Source of the DNA: Hyphomicrobium denitrificans ATCC 51888
Lineage (GTDB): Bacteria > Pseudomonadota > Alphaproteobacteria > Rhizobiales > Hyphomicrobiaceae
Direction: 5' to 3'
Length of the DNA: 64,000 nt
NCBI RefSeq assembly: GCF_000143145.1
Contig: NC_014313.1
Coordinates: 186,001-250,000, forward strand
Part shown: positions 33,994-45,670 of the stretch, piece after piece
Numbering within the stretch: the first letter of the stretch is position 1
How the letters are laid out: each line of letters starts with the position of its first letter
The notes under the pieces: model-generated
Databases searched by the model: none
Seen by the model: the letters and a program-made list of their open reading frames with translations, nothing else
What the model was told of the DNA's origin: nothing
Program-made: the position numbers and the translations under genes

Positions 33994-35070
33994 TTATACC
34001 GAATTGCGGAAGACTTGGCTGATCGTCTTTATGGCTCCGGCATCCTTGACGCGATAGCCCGGCAACGCCGCAATGGCGGCGTGGAATTCCTTCCCGCGCA
34101 TGATTTCGAGAACGCGCTGCATCGCCGGTAATTTGAGGATCTGTTTGCGGCAGACAAAAACGTAGTCCTCGGTCAGGATCGGAACGAAGTCGAGATTGAA
34201 TTGGCGTGCCGCGGATTCAACGCCAAAGGCGACATCGGCCAAGCCGCTGGCGACATATGCAGCCACGGCGGCGTGGGTGAACTCGGACTGCTCATAGCCT
34301 CGGATGGACGAAGCATCCATGCGATGCTGCGCCAGGAGTTGATCAAACAGCAATCGGGTTCCGGAGTGAGGCTCGCGATTGACGAAGCGAACGGACGGAT
34401 TGCGAAGACTTTCGAGATTGGAAATTTGCAGCGGATTTCCGCGCTGAACCATCAGGCCCATCTCTCTGGTCACCAGGGAAATGACGCGGTGCGTGTTCGG
34501 GTTGAGCCATTCCTTGTTCGCGGTGATCGCGCGCTGGCGTAATTTGCCTTGAGGCAAATGCATTCCGGCGAGATCACATCCGCCGTGCGCGAGAGAAGCG
34601 AGCGAGTTTTGATTGCTCACATATCGAAAGTCGATGCCGATCTTGGGTTCGCGACCCAATAGCTCGCGTAGCTTCGGCACGGCAAATCCGTGACTGGCAT
34701 GAACTCGCAATATCAGAGGACTGTTCGGAAGCAGCTCGTTGATTTCGGTTTCGAGTTCTTGCGAGAGGTTCTGCAGCAGCGGTCGCAGCCGCGCCTCCAA
34801 TCTCTGTCCGGCCCACACAAGTTTTTCGCCGAAGTCGGTCAGTTGTGTTCCCGCTCCTTGCTTGCGGACAACGAGCGGCATCTTGAAGAAATCAGACCAC
34901 TTCTCAATCAAATTCCAAGCGTGCCGGTAAGAAACGCCGGCTCTGTCGGCCGCTGCCGTAATCTTACCGGTCGCGCGAATTTCGGTGAGGAATTCGAGCA
35001 TGATCTTCATGGATTGGGCGTCGCCGTCGTGCTGGAAACGCCATATCGGATCAATCTCGACCTTGATCAT
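33994..35070 (-). CDS. ModE-like regulator with periplasmic-binding-type sensor domain
   Basis: A 358-residue one-component regulator. The first 100 residues are a ModE/LysR-like winged helix (MLEFLTEIRATGKITAAADR, AGVSYRHAWNLIEKWSDFF, QLTDFGEKLVWAGQRLEARL). From about 130 a solute-binding fold follows (RVHASHGFAVPKLRELL, GCDLAGMHLP, RFVNREPHSGTRLLFDQLL, ASGLADVAFGVESAARQFNL), the type found in molybdate/tungstate-linked regulators. It diverges from the exported hydrolase at 35380, with a 16-bp palindrome between them. The start at 35070 gives the family-like N-terminus; a frame to 35196 exists. Ligand unknown. Confidence 0.8.
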   Translation of the reverse strand: MIKVEIDPIWRFQHDGDAQSMKIMLEFLTEIRATGKITAAADRAGVSYRHAWNLIEKWSDFFKMPLVVRKQGAGTQLTDFGEKLVWAGQRLEARLRPLLQNLSQELETEINELLPNSPLILRVHASHGFAVPKLRELLGREPKIGIDFRYVSNQNSLASLAHGGCDLAGMHLPQGKLRQRAITANKEWLNPNTHRVISLVTREMGLMVQRGNPLQISNLESLRNPSVRFVNREPHSGTRLLFDQLLAQHRMDASSIRGYEQSEFTHAAVAAYVASGLADVAFGVESAARQFNLDFVPILTEDYVFVCRKQILKLPAMQRVLEIMRGKEFHAAIAALPGYRVKDAGAIKTISQVFRNSV

Positions 35071-35379
35071 GTTCGCTTTCGGGATGCGGGCAGTCTGATT
35101 TTTCGTATCGCAGAAGATTTCATGTTCGCGAGATTTTACAAGGTTATTAGCGCGCCAATCGTCCCCATGCTGACGGCATTCTTCGCTGCAATGCAATAGG
35201 TGCTGTTGGAGTTCCTGCGAAGGGATTTCCGAAAATAGGTCTCATCTTCCGCTTCACGTCGTTGCAGGCTTGGCGTGCTCAATCGCCGAATACACTTGGC
35301 GCCAAGTGGAGTTCACAAGCCCCCAAGACGCTCCGTTGCGATCCCGCAGAATAAGAGCTTACGCAACTCGGAGAGACAG
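35071..35379. other. Divergent control region of regulator and hydrolase 1
   Basis: No gene. Holds the perfect palindrome at 35293-35308 and presumably both promoters. Confidence 0.55.
35293..35308. promoter_or_regulatory. Perfect 16-bp palindrome, candidate operator
   Basis: CACTTGGCGCCAAGTG is fully self-complementary and lies 72 bases before the start of exported hydrolase 1 and 223 before the regulator, so it is the best candidate site for the adjacent regulator. Confidence 0.5.
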
Positions 35380-36543
35380 ATGACAAAGAAACATTTTGAT
35401 AGAAGATTTGCTGTGGGAGCAGCAGTGGTGTGCTCGGCGCTACTGAGCATGACGGCCGGCGCGGCGTCGTCTTCGTCGCGTGACAACGACAAAAGGAATC
35501 AGAGTCGACCCCATTATACGTTGGCCAAGCCCATGACGTTGCTTGACGAGGGCACGTTTTTCATCGGCGGAGAGCAAGCCCATAGCGACTTTCCGAGTTC
35601 CACGCCAACGGGCCTGAATGCGCCCGGGACGTACGTCATCAATCAAATGTTCGTCCATTACCGCATCCCGGCGACTGGCTCCAAGAAGCTACCGATCATT
35701 ATGGTGCATGGGTCAAATCATACCGGCAATACCTATGAAACGACTCCTGATGGGCGGGAAGGATGGGCAACGTATTTCGTTCGCCACGGCTATCCCGTTT
35801 ACGTCGTCGATCAAGCAGGTCGAGGCCGGTCTGGATTCAATCCCACTGCGGTCAATCAGGCGATTGCGCAGAATAATCTGGCGTCGATCCCCGCAGCCGG
35901 TTTTCAACTTTACCCGCGTGAGGGAGCATGGGTGAATTTCCTATTCGGACCTGCTTACGGTCAGGCATGGCCCGATCAGCGTTTTCCGCTGCAGGCGATG
36001 GACCAATATCAATCTCAGCTCGTTCCTAACACCGAGGTGACGTTGAACGGCGGTACTGCCAACACCACGAATGCACTTGCTTTGCTGTTGGATAAAGTCG
36101 GGCCGGCGATTTTGATCGTGCACTCGCAATCCGGAGTCTTGGGTCTCGGCGCCGTCGTCAAGCGTCCTAACCTTGTCAAAGGTCTGATTTCGGTTGAAGG
36201 CGGATGCACGCCCGTCGCCGACGCAGATATCAAGAACGCCTTTTCAAAAGTGCCGTACTTGTCGTTCTGGGGCGACCACAGTGTGGGCGCCGTGGGTGCG
36301 AACGGCGATGATCGGCGGCAAGGATGCCAAGCTACCGTCGCGTCGTTCAAGCAAGCGGGTGGCAATGCGCAGTTCCTGCTGCTGCCGGATCTCGGCATCA
36401 AGGGCAACAGTCACATGCTGATGATGGACAACAACAATCTCGAGCTTGCGGACATTCTTCAGACTTGGATTGTCCGAAACGTGGATCGCGATAGGCATTT
36501 TCCATGTAACTGCGGCCCGCATCGCGTGGGGGCCTGCTGGTAA
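35380..36543 (+). CDS. Exported alpha/beta hydrolase 1
   Basis: A 387-residue secreted serine hydrolase. A signal peptide (FAVGAAVVCSALLSMTAGAA) is followed by the fold: LPIIMVHGSNHTGNTYET, YPVYVVDQAGRGRSGF, and the elbow LIVHSQSGVLGLG (HSxSG, not the usual GxSxG) with the nucleophile Ser. The acid is perhaps the Glu of ISVEGG and the His that of GNSHMLMMD. A Cys-rich tail FPCNCGPHRVGACW is odd and may form disulfides. GGAGAG before the ATG. It is a paralogue of the gene at 36616-37863, which faces it. Substrate unknown; an ester or lactone is likely. Confidence 0.85.
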   Translation: MTKKHFDRRFAVGAAVVCSALLSMTAGAASSSSRDNDKRNQSRPHYTLAKPMTLLDEGTFFIGGEQAHSDFPSSTPTGLNAPGTYVINQMFVHYRIPATGSKKLPIIMVHGSNHTGNTYETTPDGREGWATYFVRHGYPVYVVDQAGRGRSGFNPTAVNQAIAQNNLASIPAAGFQLYPREGAWVNFLFGPAYGQAWPDQRFPLQAMDQYQSQLVPNTEVTLNGGTANTTNALALLLDKVGPAILIVHSQSGVLGLGAVVKRPNLVKGLISVEGGCTPVADADIKNAFSKVPYLSFWGDHSVGAVGANGDDRRQGCQATVASFKQAGGNAQFLLLPDLGIKGNSHMLMMDNNNLELADILQTWIVRNVDRDRHFPCNCGPHRVGACW

Positions 36544-36566
36544 AGTCTGATCGCTCGTTATTCGTG

Positions 36567-36600
36567 GGCGGCCGCAAACCTGAGCGCGGCCGCCTTTTTT
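36567..36600 (+). terminator. Strong terminator between the two hydrolase genes
   Basis: GGCGGCCGC (36567-36575) pairs perfectly with GCGGCCGCC (36586-36594) and six T follow at once. Confidence 0.9.
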
Positions 36601-36615
36601 GTATTCGCGGAGACT

Positions 36616-37863
36616 CTATCTTCCCCAAGCTATGTCGTTGTCGTGAACCTTGAGAGCCTTGCTTAGCCATTGCTCGTCAAGAGCGGCGATGTCCAGGTTG
36701 TTCATCTCCAGCATCTGCATATGCCCGTTGCCGTAAATCTTTGCGGTCGGCAGGTACAAATATGTGTTCGGTATGCCTGCCTGGGTGAGGAACGCCGAGG
36801 TGCAATAATCATATCCAGCGTGATATGAAGCTTCGCCCGTTTGAATGAGAATCGGGATGCCTTTCAAGCCCGTTGGCTGGTGAATGACCTTGCCCGATTG
36901 CAGCCAGCAGCTCTTCAAGTTTGCGGCCGGTTGTCCCTGAACGCCTGCAGCGGGAGGAGGTGTTTTGGTCAATCCAAGATCGGCGGGACTTGCGACCGGC
37001 GGATTGAACGCAAGGCAGACATTCGACAAACCGCAGGTCGTTGCAGGTGCCGTATCTCCAGTGAGACTGGAGTTACCTGATGGTTCAACTGCGATGATCG
37101 CTTTCACCATGCCGGGATTTGCCTGCGGAATAAACCAGCTTTCCGGACCGGACATTGAATGTGTCATGATGATCGCAGGGCCGATCTTCTTGATAAGTGC
37201 GGTGACGGCGGCCGTCGTCAGGGCAAGTGCCTGATCGCCGTTCGGCATGTTGGCGACCTGCGATGCGAAGAATTGATCAAACGCATAGTTTCCAGGAACG
37301 CCGCTTTTCGGGCCGCCCGGCCACTGGGTGTGTTTGATCGCTTGCGGCCAGCCCAATGGCGACGTCAATTCCGGTGCAGTGAATTGCTGCTTGACGGTCG
37401 TTGGACTTGGGTTCGCCGCTTGAGGTCCGTAGGCATTTGGAAAATAGCCGGATTTGCCACGGCCCGGCTGGTCGATAACGTAGACAGGCCATCCGTGAGC
37501 GACAAAGTATGATGCCCAGCCGGCACGACCATCAGGTGTCCCGAGAAAGTTTGCGCCAGTTTGCTGGCTGCCATGGATCATGATGATCGGAAGCCGGCTG
37601 GTTCGTTTCCAATTCCACGAGTGATTGTTTGGCGACAGCGGAAGCTGATAGAAAACATGCATCTGACCGGACATTGTGGTCGGAGCGCCAGCCGATGGCT
37701 GAACGTCATAAACGCCGCCTTCGTAAAGGACACCTTGTTCACCCACGATGAAGGGGCCGAGGTCATCATTTTTCTTGCCATGGGCAAATGCAGAAGAAAT
37801 GCAGAGAGCGCTTGCGAGCAGGATGAGCGGAACCTGACGCTGAGGCTTTGAATAATTCGTCAT
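36616..37863 (-). CDS. Exported alpha/beta hydrolase 2
   Basis: A 415-residue paralogue of hydrolase 1, on the opposite strand and end to end with it. Signal peptide VPLILLASALCISSAFA; LPIIMIHGSQQTGANFLGT, WPVYVIDQPGRGKSGYF, IIMTHSMSGPESW (nucleophile elbow HSxSG), IAVEPSGN and GNGHMQMLEMNN line up with the same blocks in gene 1, which supports the triad. Two Cys pairs in the cap region suit a periplasmic protein. AGGAG lies before the ATG at 37863. Its promoter is in the AT-rich stretch 37864-38116. Confidence 0.85.
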   Translation of the reverse strand: MTNYSKPQRQVPLILLASALCISSAFAHGKKNDDLGPFIVGEQGVLYEGGVYDVQPSAGAPTTMSGQMHVFYQLPLSPNNHSWNWKRTSRLPIIMIHGSQQTGANFLGTPDGRAGWASYFVAHGWPVYVIDQPGRGKSGYFPNAYGPQAANPSPTTVKQQFTAPELTSPLGWPQAIKHTQWPGGPKSGVPGNYAFDQFFASQVANMPNGDQALALTTAAVTALIKKIGPAIIMTHSMSGPESWFIPQANPGMVKAIIAVEPSGNSSLTGDTAPATTCGLSNVCLAFNPPVASPADLGLTKTPPPAAGVQGQPAANLKSCWLQSGKVIHQPTGLKGIPILIQTGEASYHAGYDYCTSAFLTQAGIPNTYLYLPTAKIYGNGHMQMLEMNNLDIAALDEQWLSKALKVHDNDIAWGR

Positions 37864-38116
37864 AACGTCTCCTCCTTTTCTTTCCGTTTTGGATTTGCGA
37901 TGCGCGTGCCTTTTGTAGAGTTTCGGCCGCATTGCGTCGCAGTCAGGAGCGAACCGTCGGAGCGGTGAGCGCACTTTGCAGAACAAGTTTTTGAGGATGA
38001 CGCTTAATTATTCTTTTTGGATTGTGTCGCGAAGAAATATTGGTGTGGCGATCTCCATGTCCATCGCTAGCGGCTGGCCGATGAAAGAGGCGCGCTATTC
38101 AGAAGCATCTGCTCGA

Positions 38117-39310
38117 TCAGTTCGAGAGCAGGTTCTCGTATTTGCGATCGGTGAGCGTTTTCAGGAACGCTAGGAGAGCGTCGACATCTGAGGAGCTGAG
38201 CGAGCGAGATCCGAGATCGGCGATGTTCGCGGAAACTTCGGGATCGTCCCAAACGGAACCTGTTTCGGGATTGGTCTTGGCGATGGCGGTATCAGATGAG
38301 CGCAGGTGGAAAAGCACGGCGGTTCTCAGGTCCTGAAAAATACCGTTGTGCATGTAGGGTCCGGTGATGGCGACGTTGCGAAGTATCGGAACCTTGAACT
38401 TTCCATCGAACTCGCCGTGCGTGGCCGCGGGATTCTCCATGAGCCCGTGATCAACGCGCTGTGGTTTGCTGTCGTTCAGGCGCCGCGTGACGGCGTTTCG
38501 CGGCACGCCCAAGTTGAAATAGCCGAAGTTGGTGAACACTTCATCGCGGGCACCGGCGGCTGCGCTTGCGTGGCAGCGATTGCAGCCTGCACCGTCGTTG
38601 GAGAAGAACAGGTCGCGGCCACGTGCTTCGGTTTCCGAAAGCGAAGTTTCGCCGCGCAATGAACGGTCGTACTTGGAGGTGAACGGCGCGAATTCGGGCG
38701 TGTCGAGAAATGCTGCGAGGGCGCTTTTGAGCGCGGCGATCGCTTTCGGCGTGCTGGCCAGCGCATCATCGCCGTAGAGCGCGGCGAAGGCGGTGCGGTA
38801 GTCTGCATTCTCACGCAGGCGGGCGACGATGCTTGCCTCGTCCGGCATGGCCATTTCCACCGGATTGAGAATTGGGTCGCGGACTTGATCCTCGAGTGTT
38901 CTTGCGCGTCCGTCCCAAAACATTCCGCCGACAGCCTCGCGTGCCGGCGATATATGAAACGCCGGCGTCGTGCGGATGTAGACAAGCGTCGGAGAATTGC
39001 GGTCACCCAGCGAGCGGCCGTCGCCACCGCGTGACACGGCGCCTTGGATTTCGCCTAGAACTCTCGGGTCGGTGAACGCCAGCTCGGGAGAGTGGCAGCT
39101 CACGCAGTTCTGCTTGCGACTGAAGGACAGATTTCTGTCGGAAAACAGCGCCTCTCCGAGTTTTTCCCGCGTCTTTAAATTTTCAGCCTGCGCAGATTGA
39201 AGCGTAACGCAGGAAGCTGCCGCGGCCGTAATGGCCGCGCAGCAGTAAAGACAAGCGATGCTTCGGCGAAGCCAGCGCGCAATCGCGAGTCTTTCGACCC
39301 GAACCATCAT
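38117..39310 (-). CDS. MauG/cytochrome-c-peroxidase-family dihaem protein
   Basis: A 397-residue periplasmic protein with an N-terminal export signal ending SAQA. Two haem-binding motifs, CVSCH (about residue 69) and CNRCH (about 244), and the family stretches GEALFSDRNLSFSRKQNC, AVGGMFWDGRARTLEDQ, VPILRNVAITGPYMHNGIFQ. Members either destroy peroxide or, as MauG and MbnH, oxidise Trp side chains of a partner protein. Its ATG overlaps the stop of the 181-residue exported protein as ATGA, so the two are made together, which favours a partner-modifying role. The peroxidase reading remains open. Confidence 0.9.
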   Translation of the reverse strand: MMVRVERLAIARWLRRSIACLYCCAAITAAAASCVTLQSAQAENLKTREKLGEALFSDRNLSFSRKQNCVSCHSPELAFTDPRVLGEIQGAVSRGGDGRSLGDRNSPTLVYIRTTPAFHISPAREAVGGMFWDGRARTLEDQVRDPILNPVEMAMPDEASIVARLRENADYRTAFAALYGDDALASTPKAIAALKSALAAFLDTPEFAPFTSKYDRSLRGETSLSETEARGRDLFFSNDGAGCNRCHASAAAGARDEVFTNFGYFNLGVPRNAVTRRLNDSKPQRVDHGLMENPAATHGEFDGKFKVPILRNVAITGPYMHNGIFQDLRTAVLFHLRSSDTAIAKTNPETGSVWDDPEVSANIADLGSRSLSSSDVDALLAFLKTLTDRKYENLLSN

Positions 39311-39852
39311 TTCTTATCGGCCTCGCGGACCGTCAGCTTCATCGACTTTTCCGCAGAGCCGCCGATCTGCACGATTACAGGCCCTGAGCCGAGTTCAAAC
39401 TGCACGCTCTTTCGCAGCGTCTTGCATTCCGGGTCGCCGGAAAAAGCCGTGGACTGCACCAGTTCATCGTTCTGCACGACATCGATCCAAGAGTGGTCAG
39501 GTATCGTGATCTGGTAAAGACCAGGCTTGGCGATGGCGTCGATCTTGAACCATCCAGAAAAGTTGTTCTGGGGGATCGCCTGCTTTTTGATGCCGGATGC
39601 TGCCGGGAATTTGATGCCAGGTGACGGTTCAAGCTGCAGCTGGATTGCCTTGCTCGGAACGGACGCGATCGCGCCGCCTGAAGCGACCGTCACCGCTTCC
39701 GGCGCCGCCATCAGGGTCAAGTCGGCGGCAACGGGCCACTTGAACGCAGCACACGTTTCTGCCGAGGCGGCGCCTTGAAAACCCGTTGCCGCGAAAACGG
39801 CAACGGGCAGGAGCCGCAATGATACGTGCAAACGGGAGATTGAACGTTTCAT
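39307..39852 (-). CDS. Exported 181-residue protein of the TonB/MauG operon, unknown
   Basis: A signal peptide (about residues 1-28, ending GAASA) and a mature domain of about 150 residues starting ETCAAFKWPVAADLTL. It has only two Cys (ETCA near the start, PECKTL near 145), which could pair, and three Trp (FKW, GWF, SWI). The end VIVQIGGSAEKSMKLTVREAD suggests a beta-sandwich. I know no family by name. It is translated between the TonB receptor (19 bases away) and the dihaem protein (overlap of four bases), and could be the partner of one or both. The start at 39852 is chosen because the signal peptide begins there. Confidence 0.75.
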   Translation of the reverse strand: MKRSISRLHVSLRLLPVAVFAATGFQGAASAETCAAFKWPVAADLTLMAAPEAVTVASGGAIASVPSKAIQLQLEPSPGIKFPAASGIKKQAIPQNNFSGWFKIDAIAKPGLYQITIPDHSWIDVVQNDELVQSTAFSGDPECKTLRKSVQFELGSGPVIVQIGGSAEKSMKLTVREADKK

Positions 39853-39871
39853 AGCGAAGAACCTAATCCGG

Positions 39872-42130
39872 TTAGAATTGCGTGCGCATGTTGGCGTAGA
39901 AGCTACGTCCCATCTCAGGATAGCCATCGGTCAGGACATAGTTCTCGTCGAGGATGTTGCGTGCCGTGAACATTAGGCTCGTCTTGTCGGTCAGATCGTA
40001 TTCGGTCTGGAAGTTCGCCAGAGCGAATGCGCCTGTTTTATAATAGAGCGTGCCGGCTGAATTGACCGTCCAGCGATCCGATGCGAACTCGACGTTCGGC
40101 GTGATGCTCCACGCATCGGTGATTTTGTAGGTCAGGTAGCTGATGCCCTTTACTCTCGGCATCCCCGTCAATTCGTAGGCCGGGTTCGACGGGTTGTGAA
40201 TGTCACGCTGCAGCCACGTGATGTTGCCGCCGACGAGCAGCTTGTCGCTCACTGCGTAGTCGATCGAATACTCTACGCCGTAAAAGTTTCCGTCGCCGAC
40301 GTTCTGGCTCTGGCTGACGGCCTGTCCCTGGCAAGCAGGATCCTGGCAGATATACGGCACCGACTGAATGAGATTGCTGACGTCGCTGTAGAAGATCGCC
40401 GCGGACATCTGGCTGTTGCGTGCGAAGGCGCCCGTCCAGCCCACTTCGTAGTTGATGGATCGCTCAGGTTCGAGATCCGGGTTGGATGTCGCGCCGCCGA
40501 AGCGTGAACTGAAACGCTCGAAGATCGTCGGGAAGCGCGTGCGATCCGAAACGCTGGCATGCCATGTGTTGAAGTCGTCGGATCGGTACACGATGGCGCC
40601 TTGCCAATTGAAAGCGTCCGAATTCTTCTTGTTGTATTCGAACATGCCGAGGTCGGTCGTGAATTCCTCGGCCGTGTATAGTTTACGCCAGTCGTAGCTT
40701 GCGCCAGTCACGATATCGAGCCGGTTGGTCGCGTGAATCGTGTTCTCGAAGGCGATTGAATAGGTGTCTTCCAAGTCGGTCTGGGTGGGTTCCTGAAAGC
40801 AGGGCTTTGTCGATCCGCAGGATCTGCCTCTGATGTTGTACGCCTGGGTTTCATCGTGCTGATCGCGGCGATAGAGGAAGGTCGCCTTGAACGTGTCCCA
40901 CGGCGTGATGTCGGTTCCAAACAGGATGCTGCCGCCGCCAGCCCAGTCATCATAATTGCTGATGAACGCTTTCGGCAGACTTTGGGTCGTCTGCGCCGGA
41001 TCATCGTAGCTCACGAGCTTGTCCTGGAACGTCGTGTAATACGCTTTCGTTTCGACGAAGGAAGCTGAGCCGAGCTTGGTGTGCGAGAGCCAGTACAAGT
41101 TCTGTTGAGTGGTATCCGGCCAATCCCAATAGCGCTGCTGGGCGACAGGGTCCGTGACGTGGTACGGCGCGCCTTTGGCATTGTTCATACGGACGAAGTT
41201 GATGGAGTAATCGTCCGTTGCGTTCGGGGTTAAGCCGAGCTTGGCGCTGATCTGCCAGTTGTCCTTGTAGGAATGATCGCGTTCGCCGCCGTTTTCGACC
41301 GGGGTCGGCTTGAAGTCGTTGGACATGAACCAGCCGTCGGTGTCCAACAGCGCGCCGCTGACCTGGGCGTAGTATCCGCGCTGACGCGTTCCGAGGGAGG
41401 CGTAGGTCTTGTAGCCTTCGTATTGTCCATCGGTCCCGAACATCATGCCGCCCTGGACTTCGCCTTCGACGGCCTTGGTCGGCTTCTTGGTCACGAGGTT
41501 GATTGCGCCGCCCATGCCGCCGGGGCCGTTCAATACGGACGTGTAGCCTTTGGCGATTTGAACTTCCGAGATGTCGGCGGTCAAAAAGCTGGCAAAGTCG
41601 ATGCGGTTGTCGGCGGGTCGATAGATGGTGATGCCATCGATTGAGAGCGGAACCTGCCAGCGATCAAATCCGCGTACGAAAATCAGCTGCTCATTACGGC
41701 TGCCGCCGGAATTCGACGCCGCGACGCCCGGCGCCAGTGCTAACGCTTGATCGAGTGTGGACTTCGAGAAGGTCCACATGGCGTCATTGGTGATGGCGCT
41801 GCCGCCGACCATGTCGATCTGACCGAGCGTGAAGACGCCTGCAGTTCCGGGCAGGCCGTTGCCGCTCAAGCCTCCGTCGGTGCCCACGCCATCAGTATCG
41901 ACGTCTTCGGCTTGGCCGCTTGTGGAGCCTGACTGCGTCGTATCCGTCCCTTTGGGCTTAGTTTTGGGCTTCTGCGCGATGCGTTGCTTCGGCGCCGCCA
42001 CCACGACGGGCGGGAGTGTGACTTCCGACGCGCCTTGATTGGTGACACCAGCTTCCTGCGCATGCAGGCCGCCGGCAGATGTCATCGCCAGCGCAATGCA
42101 CGCGGACGCACAGACGTTTTTCGAACGCAT
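39872..42130 (-). CDS. TonB-dependent outer-membrane receptor
   Basis: A 752-residue receptor importing a scarce ligand. Signal peptide to GLHAQ, a long hydrophilic stretch, then the plug (STLDQALALAPGVAASNSGG; VRGFDRWQVPLSIDGITIYR; YTSVLNGPGGMGGAINLVTKK) and a 22-strand barrel ending with Phe (FYANMRTQF), as required for assembly. No N-terminal signalling domain. GGGGAG stands before the ATG. It leads an operon with the 181-residue protein and the dihaem protein. The ligand could be a metal chelate; nothing in the sequence fixes it. Confidence 0.93.
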   Translation of the reverse strand: MRSKNVCASACIALAMTSAGGLHAQEAGVTNQGASEVTLPPVVVAAPKQRIAQKPKTKPKGTDTTQSGSTSGQAEDVDTDGVGTDGGLSGNGLPGTAGVFTLGQIDMVGGSAITNDAMWTFSKSTLDQALALAPGVAASNSGGSRNEQLIFVRGFDRWQVPLSIDGITIYRPADNRIDFASFLTADISEVQIAKGYTSVLNGPGGMGGAINLVTKKPTKAVEGEVQGGMMFGTDGQYEGYKTYASLGTRQRGYYAQVSGALLDTDGWFMSNDFKPTPVENGGERDHSYKDNWQISAKLGLTPNATDDYSINFVRMNNAKGAPYHVTDPVAQQRYWDWPDTTQQNLYWLSHTKLGSASFVETKAYYTTFQDKLVSYDDPAQTTQSLPKAFISNYDDWAGGGSILFGTDITPWDTFKATFLYRRDQHDETQAYNIRGRSCGSTKPCFQEPTQTDLEDTYSIAFENTIHATNRLDIVTGASYDWRKLYTAEEFTTDLGMFEYNKKNSDAFNWQGAIVYRSDDFNTWHASVSDRTRFPTIFERFSSRFGGATSNPDLEPERSINYEVGWTGAFARNSQMSAAIFYSDVSNLIQSVPYICQDPACQGQAVSQSQNVGDGNFYGVEYSIDYAVSDKLLVGGNITWLQRDIHNPSNPAYELTGMPRVKGISYLTYKITDAWSITPNVEFASDRWTVNSAGTLYYKTGAFALANFQTEYDLTDKTSLMFTARNILDENYVLTDGYPEMGRSFYANMRTQF

Positions 42131-42154
42131 AGGACTCCCCCCAGAGACCGCAAT

Positions 42155-42192
42155 ATAGCCTAATGGCTATGATTTGATAGCCTATTGGCTAT
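42155..42192. promoter_or_regulatory. Double palindromic operator upstream of the TonB receptor
   Basis: Two sites ATAGCC-N4-GGCTAT at 42155-42170 and 42177-42192 with six bases between; centres are 22 bases apart, about two helical turns. The inner halves also form GGCTAT-N6-ATAGCC. They lie 25-62 bases before the start, so a dimeric repressor bound cooperatively is likely. The regulator is not known. Confidence 0.7.
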
Positions 42193-42473
42193 ATCGAATT
42201 TCTGAAAGGCTCCAAGGCGACATTTTGGAATTGTTTTCGTAAATGTTTGAGCGTTGTATTTTTGCTCCACGGCATCGCATCGCGATAGATATGGCCTATG
42301 GCGAAATCGATATCGGCGAACTTCATCTCAAACGGCGCGTGTCTGTCGGTGTTCGTTTATCCAGCGCGTGCGGAGCATTATGGGCTGGCGATCATGGCTC
42401 GGCGGCAGGGGTAGGAAAGGTTGCGCGTTAGGTCCGGCCGCGGGACTCGGCCTTGGCTGTTTCTCATCCGCCC

Positions 42474-43067: not shown

Positions 43068-44060
43068 TCAGCCAATGTCGCGGCCGGTTTTCGGCCAGAT
43101 GAGTTCGTGAACGCTGAACTGTTTGTTGGCGTCGGTCCAGACGCGCTTCGCGTTCCAGCCCGACGCGCGTGCGACGTCACGAAACTGATCGAGCGTGTAC
43201 TTATATGAATTCTCGGTGTGGATGGTTTCGTTCTCTCTGAACCGGAACGAACGGCCACAGATTGCGACGCGCTGATTGCGCGCGCTGACGAGATGCATTT
43301 CGACACGGCCCTTGGCCGGATCATAAAGCGCGCGATGCCGAAACCCTTGCTCATCGAAGTCGCCGCCAAGTTCGCGATTGATGCGGTGAAGCAGGTTGAG
43401 ATTGAATGCCGCTGTCACCCCTTCGGCATCGTCATAGGCCTCGATGAGGACGCGCGGATCTTTTTTCAGGTCGACGCCGATAATGAGGCGGCTGCCTTCG
43501 CCAAGCGCGCGGCCGAAAATCGACAGAAGAGACTGAGCGTCAGATGGCGCGAGATTGCCGATGGTCGAGCCGGGAAAGAAGCCGGTCTTGCGGCGCGATG
43601 CGAGATCGGCAGGCAATGCAATCGCGCGCGAGAAGTCGGCTTCGATCGGCCGAACGTCAAGTTCTGGATAGCGCTTCGTGAGCCTGCGTTTTGCGTCGGC
43701 AAGTGCGGTTTGCGAGACGTCGATCGGCACGTATGCAATCGACGATGCGATACGGTCGAGGAGGATTTCGGTTTTCAAGCTCGATCCCGAACCGAACTCG
43801 ACAAGCAATTCGCCGTCGCCGATTTCACCGACGATGTCGGCGGCATGATCGCGCAAGATCTGAGTTTCGGTCCGCGTCGGGTAATATTCCGGCAGGCGCG
43901 TGATATCTTCGAACAGCTCGCTGCCGCGTGCATCATAGAAATAGCGGCACGGCAGCGTTTTTTTCTCTTTCGACAAGCCCGCGATCACGGCGCGAGCGAA
44001 CTCATTCTCGGGCGTGTCGACATGAGCGGGAGCTTTGGGAAGCGTTTGAGCGCGAGACAT
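43068..44060 (-). CDS. egtD: L-histidine N-alpha-methyltransferase EgtD
   Basis: Trimethylates histidine to hercynine with S-adenosylmethionine, first step of ergothioneine synthesis. 330 residues: KTLPCRYFYDARGSELFEDI, LPEYYPTRTE, LVEFGSGSSLKTEILL (cofactor site), FFPGSTIGNLAP, and HTENSYKYT near the end. The ATG at 44060 overlaps the egtB stop by one base, with GGAGG seven bases before it; longer frames to 44282 are inside egtB. Confidence 0.95.
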   Translation of the reverse strand: MSRAQTLPKAPAHVDTPENEFARAVIAGLSKEKKTLPCRYFYDARGSELFEDITRLPEYYPTRTETQILRDHAADIVGEIGDGELLVEFGSGSSLKTEILLDRIASSIAYVPIDVSQTALADAKRRLTKRYPELDVRPIEADFSRAIALPADLASRRKTGFFPGSTIGNLAPSDAQSLLSIFGRALGEGSRLIIGVDLKKDPRVLIEAYDDAEGVTAAFNLNLLHRINRELGGDFDEQGFRHRALYDPAKGRVEMHLVSARNQRVAICGRSFRFRENETIHTENSYKYTLDQFRDVARASGWNAKRVWTDANKQFSVHELIWPKTGRDIG

Positions 44061-45361
44061 TAGCGAGCCTCCGATGCCAGCCTGAGACCGACGAATTGCC
44101 AGCGTTGATGTGGGTAGAAGAAGTTGCGATAGGTCGGCCGCGAATGGCCCGCTGGTGTCACGCACGATGCCCCGCGAAGGACCTGCTGGCTGATCATGAA
44201 TTTGCCGTTGTATTCCCCGATTGCGCCTGCCGGGGGACGATAGCCGGGATAGGGCAGATAAGCGCTCGACGTCCATTGCCACACGTCGCCGAAGAGCTGT
44301 CGCGGCGTTTGGAGATTCGCGTCTTTCGCGCGTTGAGGCCTGAAATGATTTGCTGGCTGGTCGTGTCGCGCGCTTGCTTCAAGCGCTGCCATTTCCCATT
44401 CGAATTCAGTCGGCAGGCGTTTTCCAGCCCAGCGAGCGAACGCATCGGCTTCGAAGTAGGACACGTGCGCGACTGGCTCCGCGGGTACGACCGGCAGAAG
44501 TCCGTGCAACGACATTTGGAACCAGCCGGCGTCGCTTTTTTCCCAATAGAGCGGAGCCTGCCAATCCTCGCGGTTGACCGTCGTCCAGCCGTCTGCGAGC
44601 CAAAGCGATGCTGTGGCGTAGCCGCCGTCGGCAATGAATTCGAGCCACTCGGCGTTGGTGACAAGACGGTCTGCGAGCTTAAACGGATGCACGAGCGCGT
44701 CATGCTGGGGCCGTTCATTGTCCCAGCAATAGTCATTCGACGCATGCCCGATGCGATGAATTCCACCTTCATATTCAATCCAGCGCAGGGGTTCGGGCTG
44801 CGATACGTCGACATTTGAAGGCGACGCCTGATAGGCGGGCTTGAGCGGGCTCGCGGCAAACAGAGCGAGAATGTCCGTCAGGAGCAGTTCCTGATGCTGC
44901 TGCTCGTGATTGATGCCGATTTCAATGAGGCGCGCGAGATCTTCGCTCTGGCCCTGTTCAGATGCGAGAAGCATTTCGAGCGCCTCATCGACGTGGGCGC
45001 GGTAGGCAAAGATGCGTTCGGCGGAGGGACGTGTCAGCAGTCCTCGTCTCGGACGCGGATGGCGTGGTCCGAGCGCTTCATAATAAGAGTTAAAGCAATA
45101 ATTGAAGTTTTCGTCGAACGTTTGGTAGCCATCGAGATGCGGCTTCAGAACGAAATTCTCGAAAAACCACGTGACGTGCGCGAGATGCCATTTGGTGGGG
45201 CTCGCGTCTTCCATCGCTTGCACGACCATGTCCTCGGACGTGAGCGGTGCGGCAAGCGCAATCGAATGACGCCGCGTAGCGAATAATCTTTCGGCGATCG
45301 TCGTGGCAGTAGTTTTTGTGAGAGGCGCGGCGCTCGCAGCGGTGAGCAATGTGGGATGCAT
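44060..45361 (-). CDS. egtB: Ergothioneine biosynthesis sulfoxide synthase EgtB
   Basis: Iron enzyme joining hercynine to a thiol with O2. 433 residues: a DinB-like N-terminal domain with iron ligands in KWHLAHVTWFFENF and GINHEQQHQEL, and a formylglycine-type C-terminal domain (LPTEFEWEMAALEA; DVWQWTSSAYLPYPGY; LRGASCVTPAGHSRPTYRNF). AGGAG fits the ATG at 45361; one at 45367 is too close. Operon with egtD. No lyase gene (egtE) is seen nearby. Confidence 0.95.
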   Translation of the reverse strand: MHPTLLTAASAAPLTKTTATTIAERLFATRRHSIALAAPLTSEDMVVQAMEDASPTKWHLAHVTWFFENFVLKPHLDGYQTFDENFNYCFNSYYEALGPRHPRPRRGLLTRPSAERIFAYRAHVDEALEMLLASEQGQSEDLARLIEIGINHEQQHQELLLTDILALFAASPLKPAYQASPSNVDVSQPEPLRWIEYEGGIHRIGHASNDYCWDNERPQHDALVHPFKLADRLVTNAEWLEFIADGGYATASLWLADGWTTVNREDWQAPLYWEKSDAGWFQMSLHGLLPVVPAEPVAHVSYFEADAFARWAGKRLPTEFEWEMAALEASARHDQPANHFRPQRAKDANLQTPRQLFGDVWQWTSSAYLPYPGYRPPAGAIGEYNGKFMISQQVLRGASCVTPAGHSRPTYRNFFYPHQRWQFVGLRLASEAR

Positions 45362-45670
45362 GATCATTCTCCTCGGCCGGCTCCTATCGCGCGACGATCA
45401 TAGGTCTAAGATTTGAGATGTGAAATATTGCGCTGCCGAGCGCGAGCAATTGGGTAGCAACGCTTCGCGTTCTAATGCTGCCTGGTCAGGCGTGACGTGC
45501 GAAAAATGGTGAGCAGCGGCGTTCTGCCGAAGCTCACCCGACAATGCACAGAACACGCTGCTCAAGAGAACTCATCCGCTTCGATATCCGTCGCCCGCGG
45601 CACGACAAGATCGCAACGCGAAGTCCGATATATTGTTCCAAGCCTTCAACTGAGGTCATCAGCGTTGGCG
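45362..45670. other. Region between egtB start and DUF427 stop
   Basis: No gene seen. It should contain the egtBD promoter; a small hairpin GCGCT-GCCG-AGCGC is near 45430-45443. Confidence 0.45.

Follow-up and report, generated by a model that had tools for sequence, protein, structure and literature searches.

A candidate ModE-controlled, TonB-dependent uptake unit for molybdenum with a MauG-type di-haem protein in Hyphomicrobium denitrificans

Three adjoining genes of Hyphomicrobium denitrificans ATCC 51888, encoding a TonB-dependent receptor, a small exported protein and a di-haem protein, probably form a ModE-controlled uptake system for molybdenum (or tungsten). This reading is preferred because relatives of the small protein keep company with molybdenum genes and because palindromes resembling the ModE box, of a kind common to modA genes, precede the receptor gene. 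The genes lie in a 64-kb window (the whole stretch of DNA that was analysed, 64,000 nucleotides), which is part of a 3,638,969-base single-contig genome. All three are on the minus strand, with the receptor gene first. The interval 38117–42192 ends on two inverted repeats that were absent from the original prediction for this locus and are the key to the new reading. The features are the following:

42173..42196, no strand: distal Mo-box-like operator; core ATAGCCTATTGGCTAT at 42177–42192; the frame ends 42 bp before the receptor ATG
42151..42174, no strand: proximal Mo-box-like operator; core ATAGCCTAATGGCTAT at 42155–42170; the 24-mer stops 20 bp short of the receptor ATG
39872..42130, minus strand: TonB-dependent outer-membrane receptor, 752 aa; PF00593 at 127.3 bits, PF07715 at 57.9 bits
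39307..39852, minus strand: exported protein, predicted β-sandwich, 181 aa, of an unnamed family linked by its neighbourhoods to Mop/ModA/ModE; no Pfam/NCBIfam match
38117..39310, minus strand: MauG-type di-haem protein, 397 aa, with His at MauG Tyr294 and without Trp199, as judged by MauG homology and ligand positions

The coordinates confirm the three-gene unit that had been predicted, with a 19-bp gap between the receptor gene and the small gene and a 4-bp overlap (ATGA) between the small gene and the di-haem gene; the arrangement recurs in 11 triads, and the spacing suggests that the three genes are translationally coupled. The proposal of an uptake unit that includes an exported accessory protein is likewise supported. 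Plug and barrel of the receptor both score above the Pfam cut-offs (PF07715, 57.9 versus 23.9 bits; PF00593, 127.3 versus 27 bits). Receptors of the other seven triads of the genus share 65–87% identity with it. The best NCBIfam model for the receptor is a siderophore receptor subfamily (156 bits, under the cut-off of 223.5), and its weak matches are siderophore receptors. The AlphaFold model of the receptor (pLDDT 31.3, six sequences) gave no usable fold, and no relative was found in the viral contigs searched.

Neighbouring genes were also considered as parts of the unit. The hydrolases at 35275–37986 were rejected as members, since none of the other genus triads has a match to them nearby; they are convergent, exported α/β hydrolase-like genes with weak Pfam matches (35275–36543, plus strand; 36616–37986, minus strand) and lie between the triad and a regulator gene. 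The latter (33994–35196, minus strand), three genes from the triad, encodes a ModE-type HTH fused to a PBP_like (MoeA-type) domain. As a conserved operon regulator, this fusion was likewise rejected: among the 22 genomes compared it is full length only in this one, the other 21 genus genomes having short or weak matches. At the opposite end, two overlapping genes (43068–45367, minus strand), which we take to resemble the ergothioneine pair EgtD/EgtB, adjoin the region upstream of the triad.

The small protein contains three tryptophans (W39, W101 and W122) and one cysteine pair (C34 and C143), read from the sequence as originally described. Its placement outside known families also held up: no Pfam or NCBIfam match was obtained at E ≤ 1, a profile search of solved structures returned nothing, and there was no match to known molybdate-binding families. 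In total, 169 relatives were found, 120 of which were listed. Among 162 aligned family rows, some of them duplicates, C34 and C143 are both kept in all 162, W39 in 155 and W122 in 161, whether or not the enzyme is present. R147-K148-S149, D124 and Q127 are conserved as well. An AlphaFold model of the protein reached a pLDDT of 86.3; its fold matches, including those of the PPC/collagen-binding type, are at the level of the common sandwich arrangement.

Judged by gene neighbourhood, the family is most likely linked to molybdenum, as its commonest identified neighbours are molybdenum genes. Within the genus, mop lies directly upstream of the small gene in 16/16 non-triad copies; this mop encodes a molbindin of ~68 aa with a TOBE domain, and six of the 16 (L061, L065, L069, L070, L071 and L183) show the order TonB–mop–small with a full-length TonB gene. 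The two genes share the same 17 of 22 genus genomes, a co-occurrence that arises because they are mostly neighbours. The window genome itself has a separate mop–small pair (mop at G000:C1:3410045-3410248, small gene at 3409515). Elsewhere in the order, ModA, ModB, ModE, Mop or TupA is encoded within 4.5 kb of the small gene in 22/40 loci, compared with 1/13 control loci, fetched for other reasons, where the single case is one weak ModB match. A TonB receptor of the same kind is found at 7/40 of these loci outside the genus, and neither a molybdenum gene nor a TonB gene is nearby at 16/40. The 40 loci were taken by E-value from 59 non-genus, non-triad rows, with 18 weaker or partial rows left out.

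Several loci join the small domain still more closely to molybdenum genes. In L019, from a metagenome-assembled genome, ModA and the small domain are fused in one frame; in L020, the small domain lies between ModA and ModE; and in L024, a TonB gene is followed by the small gene, with a divergent ModE. All six ModA proteins tested exceeded the TIGR01256 cut-off; ModA was checked by a curated model for these six and Mop by Pfam for one, the rest being named by likeness. TupA-like proteins adjoin three small genes (L008, L009 and L190), that of L009 reaching only 247 of the 400 bits required by the TupA model. Two of the locus sets share species (L024/L193 and L022/L188), and their counts were kept apart. 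A DUF2325 gene is repeatedly found beside modA/modE/small loci in Methylobacterium and relatives (L016, L018 and L019, also L010), preceded in the first three by ModE-like boxes.

Both operators are inverted repeats with perfect arms, and the pattern ATAGCCN4GGCTAT occurs in the whole genome only as the two operator cores. Sites like CGWTATAG-N8-CTATAWCG are present upstream of 13/13 inspected TonB genes of the triad and TonB–mop–small types, the palindrome being close to CGATATAGYY-N4-RRCTATATCG; in L054 and L070, the site falls within the automatic ORF call yet ahead of the conserved start. The pattern ATAGYYNNNNRRCTATAWCG has 30 matches in 16/22 genus genomes, including double-counted overlapping or palindromic sites, against one for the reversed pattern, and several TonB sites miss this strict form. 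Four of the matches, at G017:C2, are tandem copies near genes that we take to be Cas genes, and these are probably CRISPR repeats. A matrix made from the TonB sites only gave scores of 13.8–30.5 at 10/10 modA genes, seven of which were picked by ModE homology and three by pattern; at the L128 modA gene, the site lies 25 bp inside the called start. Among control promoters, 2/269 scored at least 13.5, both via one common site. A broader window set (29/386 at 13.5 or more) takes in loci that had been selected by the motif or had contributed to the matrix, and the 269-promoter set is clean.

The published ModE consensus is given as atCGnTATATA-N6-TATATAnCGat in the available text of the source; the genus box has the same 24-bp frame, and its eighth base differs from the E. 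coli consensus (PMC545781). Outside the genus, 6/7 TonB-bearing small loci carry a ModE-like box scoring 13/16 or more, versus 5.3% of random windows, and the seventh locus, L193 (the same as L024), has a 15/16 site beyond the scanned stretch. In a second set outside the genus, which includes the outside triads, 8/24 unit starts reach at least 13/16 and 16 fall below, compared with 30/1320 random windows. With the genus matrix, the outside triads L171, L172 and L177 have no box above 12, only diverged palindromes, and around the eight orphan small genes of the genus that lack an intact TonB gene, sites within 700 bp score no higher than 8.1. The window genome holds a ModE-like gene, with the HTH only, behind modABC at L127; its best model is TIGR00637 (87.7 bits, below the cut-off of 98.5). 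Because the box stands so near the receptor start codon, its position suggests that the operator may act by repression.

A near orthologue of the small protein (at least 43% identity) is encoded in eight of the 17 genus genomes that carry the family, in 8/8 cases between a TonB receptor of the same kind and a di-haem gene. Three further TonB–small–MauG triads outside the genus (L171, L172 and L177) bring the total to 11. The original prediction had made the di-haem enzyme the regular partner of the small protein, with constant co-occurrence as its test; the wider sample speaks largely against this. Among 397 genomes of the order, the small family is present in 65 and a MauG-like match at ≤1e-100 in 27, and both are found in only eight, adjacent in seven. 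The small protein is thus widespread without the di-haem gene: 58/65 small-bearing genomes have no adjacent MauG-like enzyme, and none of the 40 further loci of the order has a MauG-like gene near the small locus. Syntenic loci of one genus illustrate the same point, as L171 has the enzyme and its close sister L196 does not, with near-identical small proteins; the L196 receptor gene is full length, and L195 is a second enzyme-less case. Because these sisters do without it, the enzyme is not needed for receptor and small protein to stay paired. Its distribution marks the di-haem gene as a lineage-specific addition.

No mop gene lies within the fetched stretches of the 11 triads. At the conserved mop–small site, 5/7 non-triad genomes of the genus (G002, G005, G007, G008 and G020) have an intact TonB gene and the other two (G016 and G018) a decayed one, whereas it is intact in 0/7 triad genomes and survives as a remnant in one of these (Fisher p 0.021, uncorrected for descent). 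This count leaves out G010, G011 and G021, whose mop–small site is not in comparable form. On account of this difference, the data fit a scenario in which the triad has replaced the older receptor of the mop–small site in its function. In the triad genome G003, the mop-linked small paralogue (L073 4988–5522) is split over two frames and is therefore apparently broken.

That the third gene encodes a MauG-like enzyme, as first proposed, is well founded. The protein has two CXXCH motifs and matches PF03150 at 142.9 bits, and its nearest solved relatives are those of Paracoccus MauG (E ~1e-98 over residues 50–396); more distant ones are 6nx0 (7e-47) and 6e1c (2e-32), presumably BthA and MbnH. Against the MbnH model TIGR04039, it scores 150.7 bits, with a cut-off of 362.85. 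In a tree, the triad enzymes cluster together with moderate support (89/83). The enzyme keeps the GMFWDGRA motif with a Trp between the haems, and 9/11 triads retain a counterpart of MauG W93. Trp199, which we take to be the electron-hopping residue of MauG, is absent from 11/11 triad enzymes. Tyr294, the axial ligand of the six-coordinate haem in MauG, is replaced by His in the window protein and in 10/11 triads, with Tyr in L177. One report finds that neither MauG nor BthA shows the bis-Fe(IV) feature once Tyr is changed to His, while BthA with this change retains peroxidase activity (PMC6405878). Thus, a natural MauG relative bears the same substitution that removes bis-Fe(IV) in the laboratory.

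No methylamine dehydrogenase light chain is encoded in the eight triad genomes of the genus, and PF02975 occurs in 2/22 genus genomes, neither with a triad; therefore, the normal client of MauG is absent there. MauG-like genes at 49–53% identity lie near DHOR genes in L140 (a neighbourhood checked by Pfam), L141, L173, L179 and L180, and imelysin genes also adjoin them in L140, L173, L179 and L180, with L141 having DHOR only. Given these relatives, this branch of enzymes is associated with more than one envelope system. The Pseudomonas ModA system likewise has a receptor, IcmP, that is presumably imelysin-like.

The function first ascribed to the enzyme, on the model of MauG with methylamine dehydrogenase or MbnH with MbnP, was oxidation of a Trp of the exported protein, which in its modified form would bind the imported ligand; this now seems quite unlikely. 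It draws on the gene overlap in the window and its recurrence in 11 triads, on the closeness of the enzyme to true MauG, on the W93 counterpart kept in 9/11 triads and on the missing usual client in the eight genus triad genomes. W101 also speaks for it, being W in 9/11 triads and 0/32 non-triad proteins, and is found in 22/122 database relatives as well, mostly with gene context unseen. Its use as a marker of the enzyme was nevertheless abandoned when the initial 8/8 triads versus 0/32 fell to 9/11 with three more triads, position 101 being F in two triads and in two enzyme-less sisters. The predicted conservation of the Trp residues holds for W39 and W122, but with or without the enzyme, so no Trp of the small protein is both triad-specific and invariant across the 11 triads. 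The same reading is opposed by the 58/65 genomes in which the small protein has no adjacent enzyme, by the near-identical small proteins of L171 and L196, by His for Tyr294 in 10/11 triads together with the missing Trp199, and by the loss of bis-Fe(IV) on the Tyr-to-His change, as the available text describes it (PMC6405878). Trp as the enzyme substrate is thereby weakened; in the W101 lineage, Trp modification may still occur.

The other alternatives concern the cargo. Under one, the ModE-controlled operon would import something else that cells short of molybdenum require, for instance tungsten, iron or a further metal serving Mo-free enzymes; we regard this as unlikely, though it has the company of the box in its favour. 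In other genus genomes (L117, L118 and L126), Mo-box-like sites adjoin the genes for a LysR protein and a Mo-free, NAD-dependent formate dehydrogenase. The dehydrogenase owes its name to its likeness to the L120 protein, which NF005750 recognises; this pairing looks like an enzyme swap in molybdenum shortage. Such sites also precede haem aldoxime dehydratase-like genes (L118, L120 and L122) and a formate-tetrahydrofolate ligase gene of the window genome (L114 5011; C1:3203391), the latter suggesting that formate assimilation may be under molybdenum control. At L115:5398-8943, a site lies upstream of a TonB receptor of another kind, which has a PF01497 binding protein after it. The TupA-like neighbours at L008, L009 (247 of 400 bits) and L190 and the weak siderophore-receptor matches of the window receptor lend further weight. 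Since the same box accompanies a Mo-free formate dehydrogenase and other genes, molybdenum control is no proof of molybdenum import. However, the exported partner is found family-wide beside mop and modA and in one case forms a fusion with ModA; these associations favour the oxyanion itself as the cargo. Far less probable is an ordinary siderophore-type receptor with chance neighbours, for which the molybdenum link would be a coincidence. TonB receptors are common and the best NCBIfam model is of the siderophore subfamily, albeit at 156 bits under a cut-off of 223.5, but coincidence accounts poorly for a box at 10/10 modA genes versus 2/269 control promoters, for molybdenum genes at 22/40 small loci versus 1/13 controls, or for the existence of a ModA–small fusion.

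The preferred reading, ModE-controlled molybdenum uptake, builds on the operon structure, the molybdenum-neighboured family, the operator common to modA, the mop-less triads and the haem-ligand change established by computation. When molybdenum is sufficient, ModE would occupy the two operators before the receptor gene and repress the operon, which would be expressed in molybdenum shortage. The receptor would then import a molybdenum species through the outer membrane, probably molybdate (or tungstate) on an organic ligand, and the exported β-sandwich protein would handle this species in the periplasm and pass it toward ModA/ModABC, with Mop acting as a cytoplasmic molybdenum buffer. TonB–mop–small would be the older form of the operon; in the window lineage, mop would have gone from the operon and a MauG-type enzyme would have been placed after the small gene. 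The di-haem protein would be an accessory, probably with peroxidase-type chemistry, and may act on the organic ligand to free molybdenum or on the small protein. Counting against this reading are the 16/24 unit starts outside the genus that fall below 13/16 and the 16/40 small loci without a molybdenum or TonB gene, together with the differing eighth base of the genus box, the low site scores of the outside triads and orphan small genes, the ModE-like protein below its model cut-off and the lack of a match between the small protein and known molybdate-binding families. A bolder version can be offered only tentatively: the unit might be the first TonB-dependent outer-membrane molybdenum importer, its small protein might define a new periplasmic oxyanion-handling family, and its lineage-recruited, His-ligated MauG descendant might be a periplasmic oxidase that strips molybdenum from an organic carrier or matures the handling protein.

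Known systems resemble the unit in part. MbnH converts Trp to kynurenine in MbnP. The MbnT–MbnP–MbnH genes of methanobactin operons, and also MopE/SACCP and CorA/CorB, similarly place a receptor, a partner and a MauG-like enzyme side by side, as far as the available text of the source extends (PMC3621798). Unlike MbnP, the small protein of the window matches neither TIGR04052, the MbnP model, nor any other NCBIfam model, and the window enzyme stays far below the MbnH cut-off of TIGR04039; moreover, the control element here is a Mo-box and the enzyme is optional. Paracoccus MauG, which serves TTQ biosynthesis, is the closest solved relative and shares the two CXXCH motifs and the WDGRA Trp; the window enzyme differs in having His for Tyr294, in lacking Trp199 and in the absence of a methylamine dehydrogenase light chain from the genome. 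With the ModE/ModABC/Mop regulon, the unit has in common the 24-bp-frame palindrome found at modA, and the family has modA, modE and mop as neighbours; we know of no outer-membrane receptor in that regulon.

Molybdate is usually assumed to cross the outer membrane by porin diffusion, and the passage of scarce molybdenum through the outer membrane of Gram-negative bacteria has been little explored. Among the listed matches in the open-licence literature, no title or abstract reported a TonB-dependent molybdate or tungstate importer. The T6SS–ModA–IcmP system of P. aeruginosa is alike in having an outer-membrane receptor step in molybdenum uptake and differs in relying on secreted ModA and IcmP, with no TonB receptor or small partner for molybdenum mentioned in the available text; it is the only outer-membrane precedent for molybdenum among the matches listed (PMC9769707, PMC11734730). 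The receptor, its conserved partner, the operator and the genus together provide a named system in which active outer-membrane uptake of molybdenum can be tested. Likewise, an unnamed family with 169 members found gains a functional handle, namely molybdenum. Among the remaining Mo-box-like sites, one lies near a molybdenum hydroxylase (L121), and two are directly followed by genes for 126-aa proteins (L116:4554-4934 and L120:4707-5087), that of L116 being without a Pfam match.
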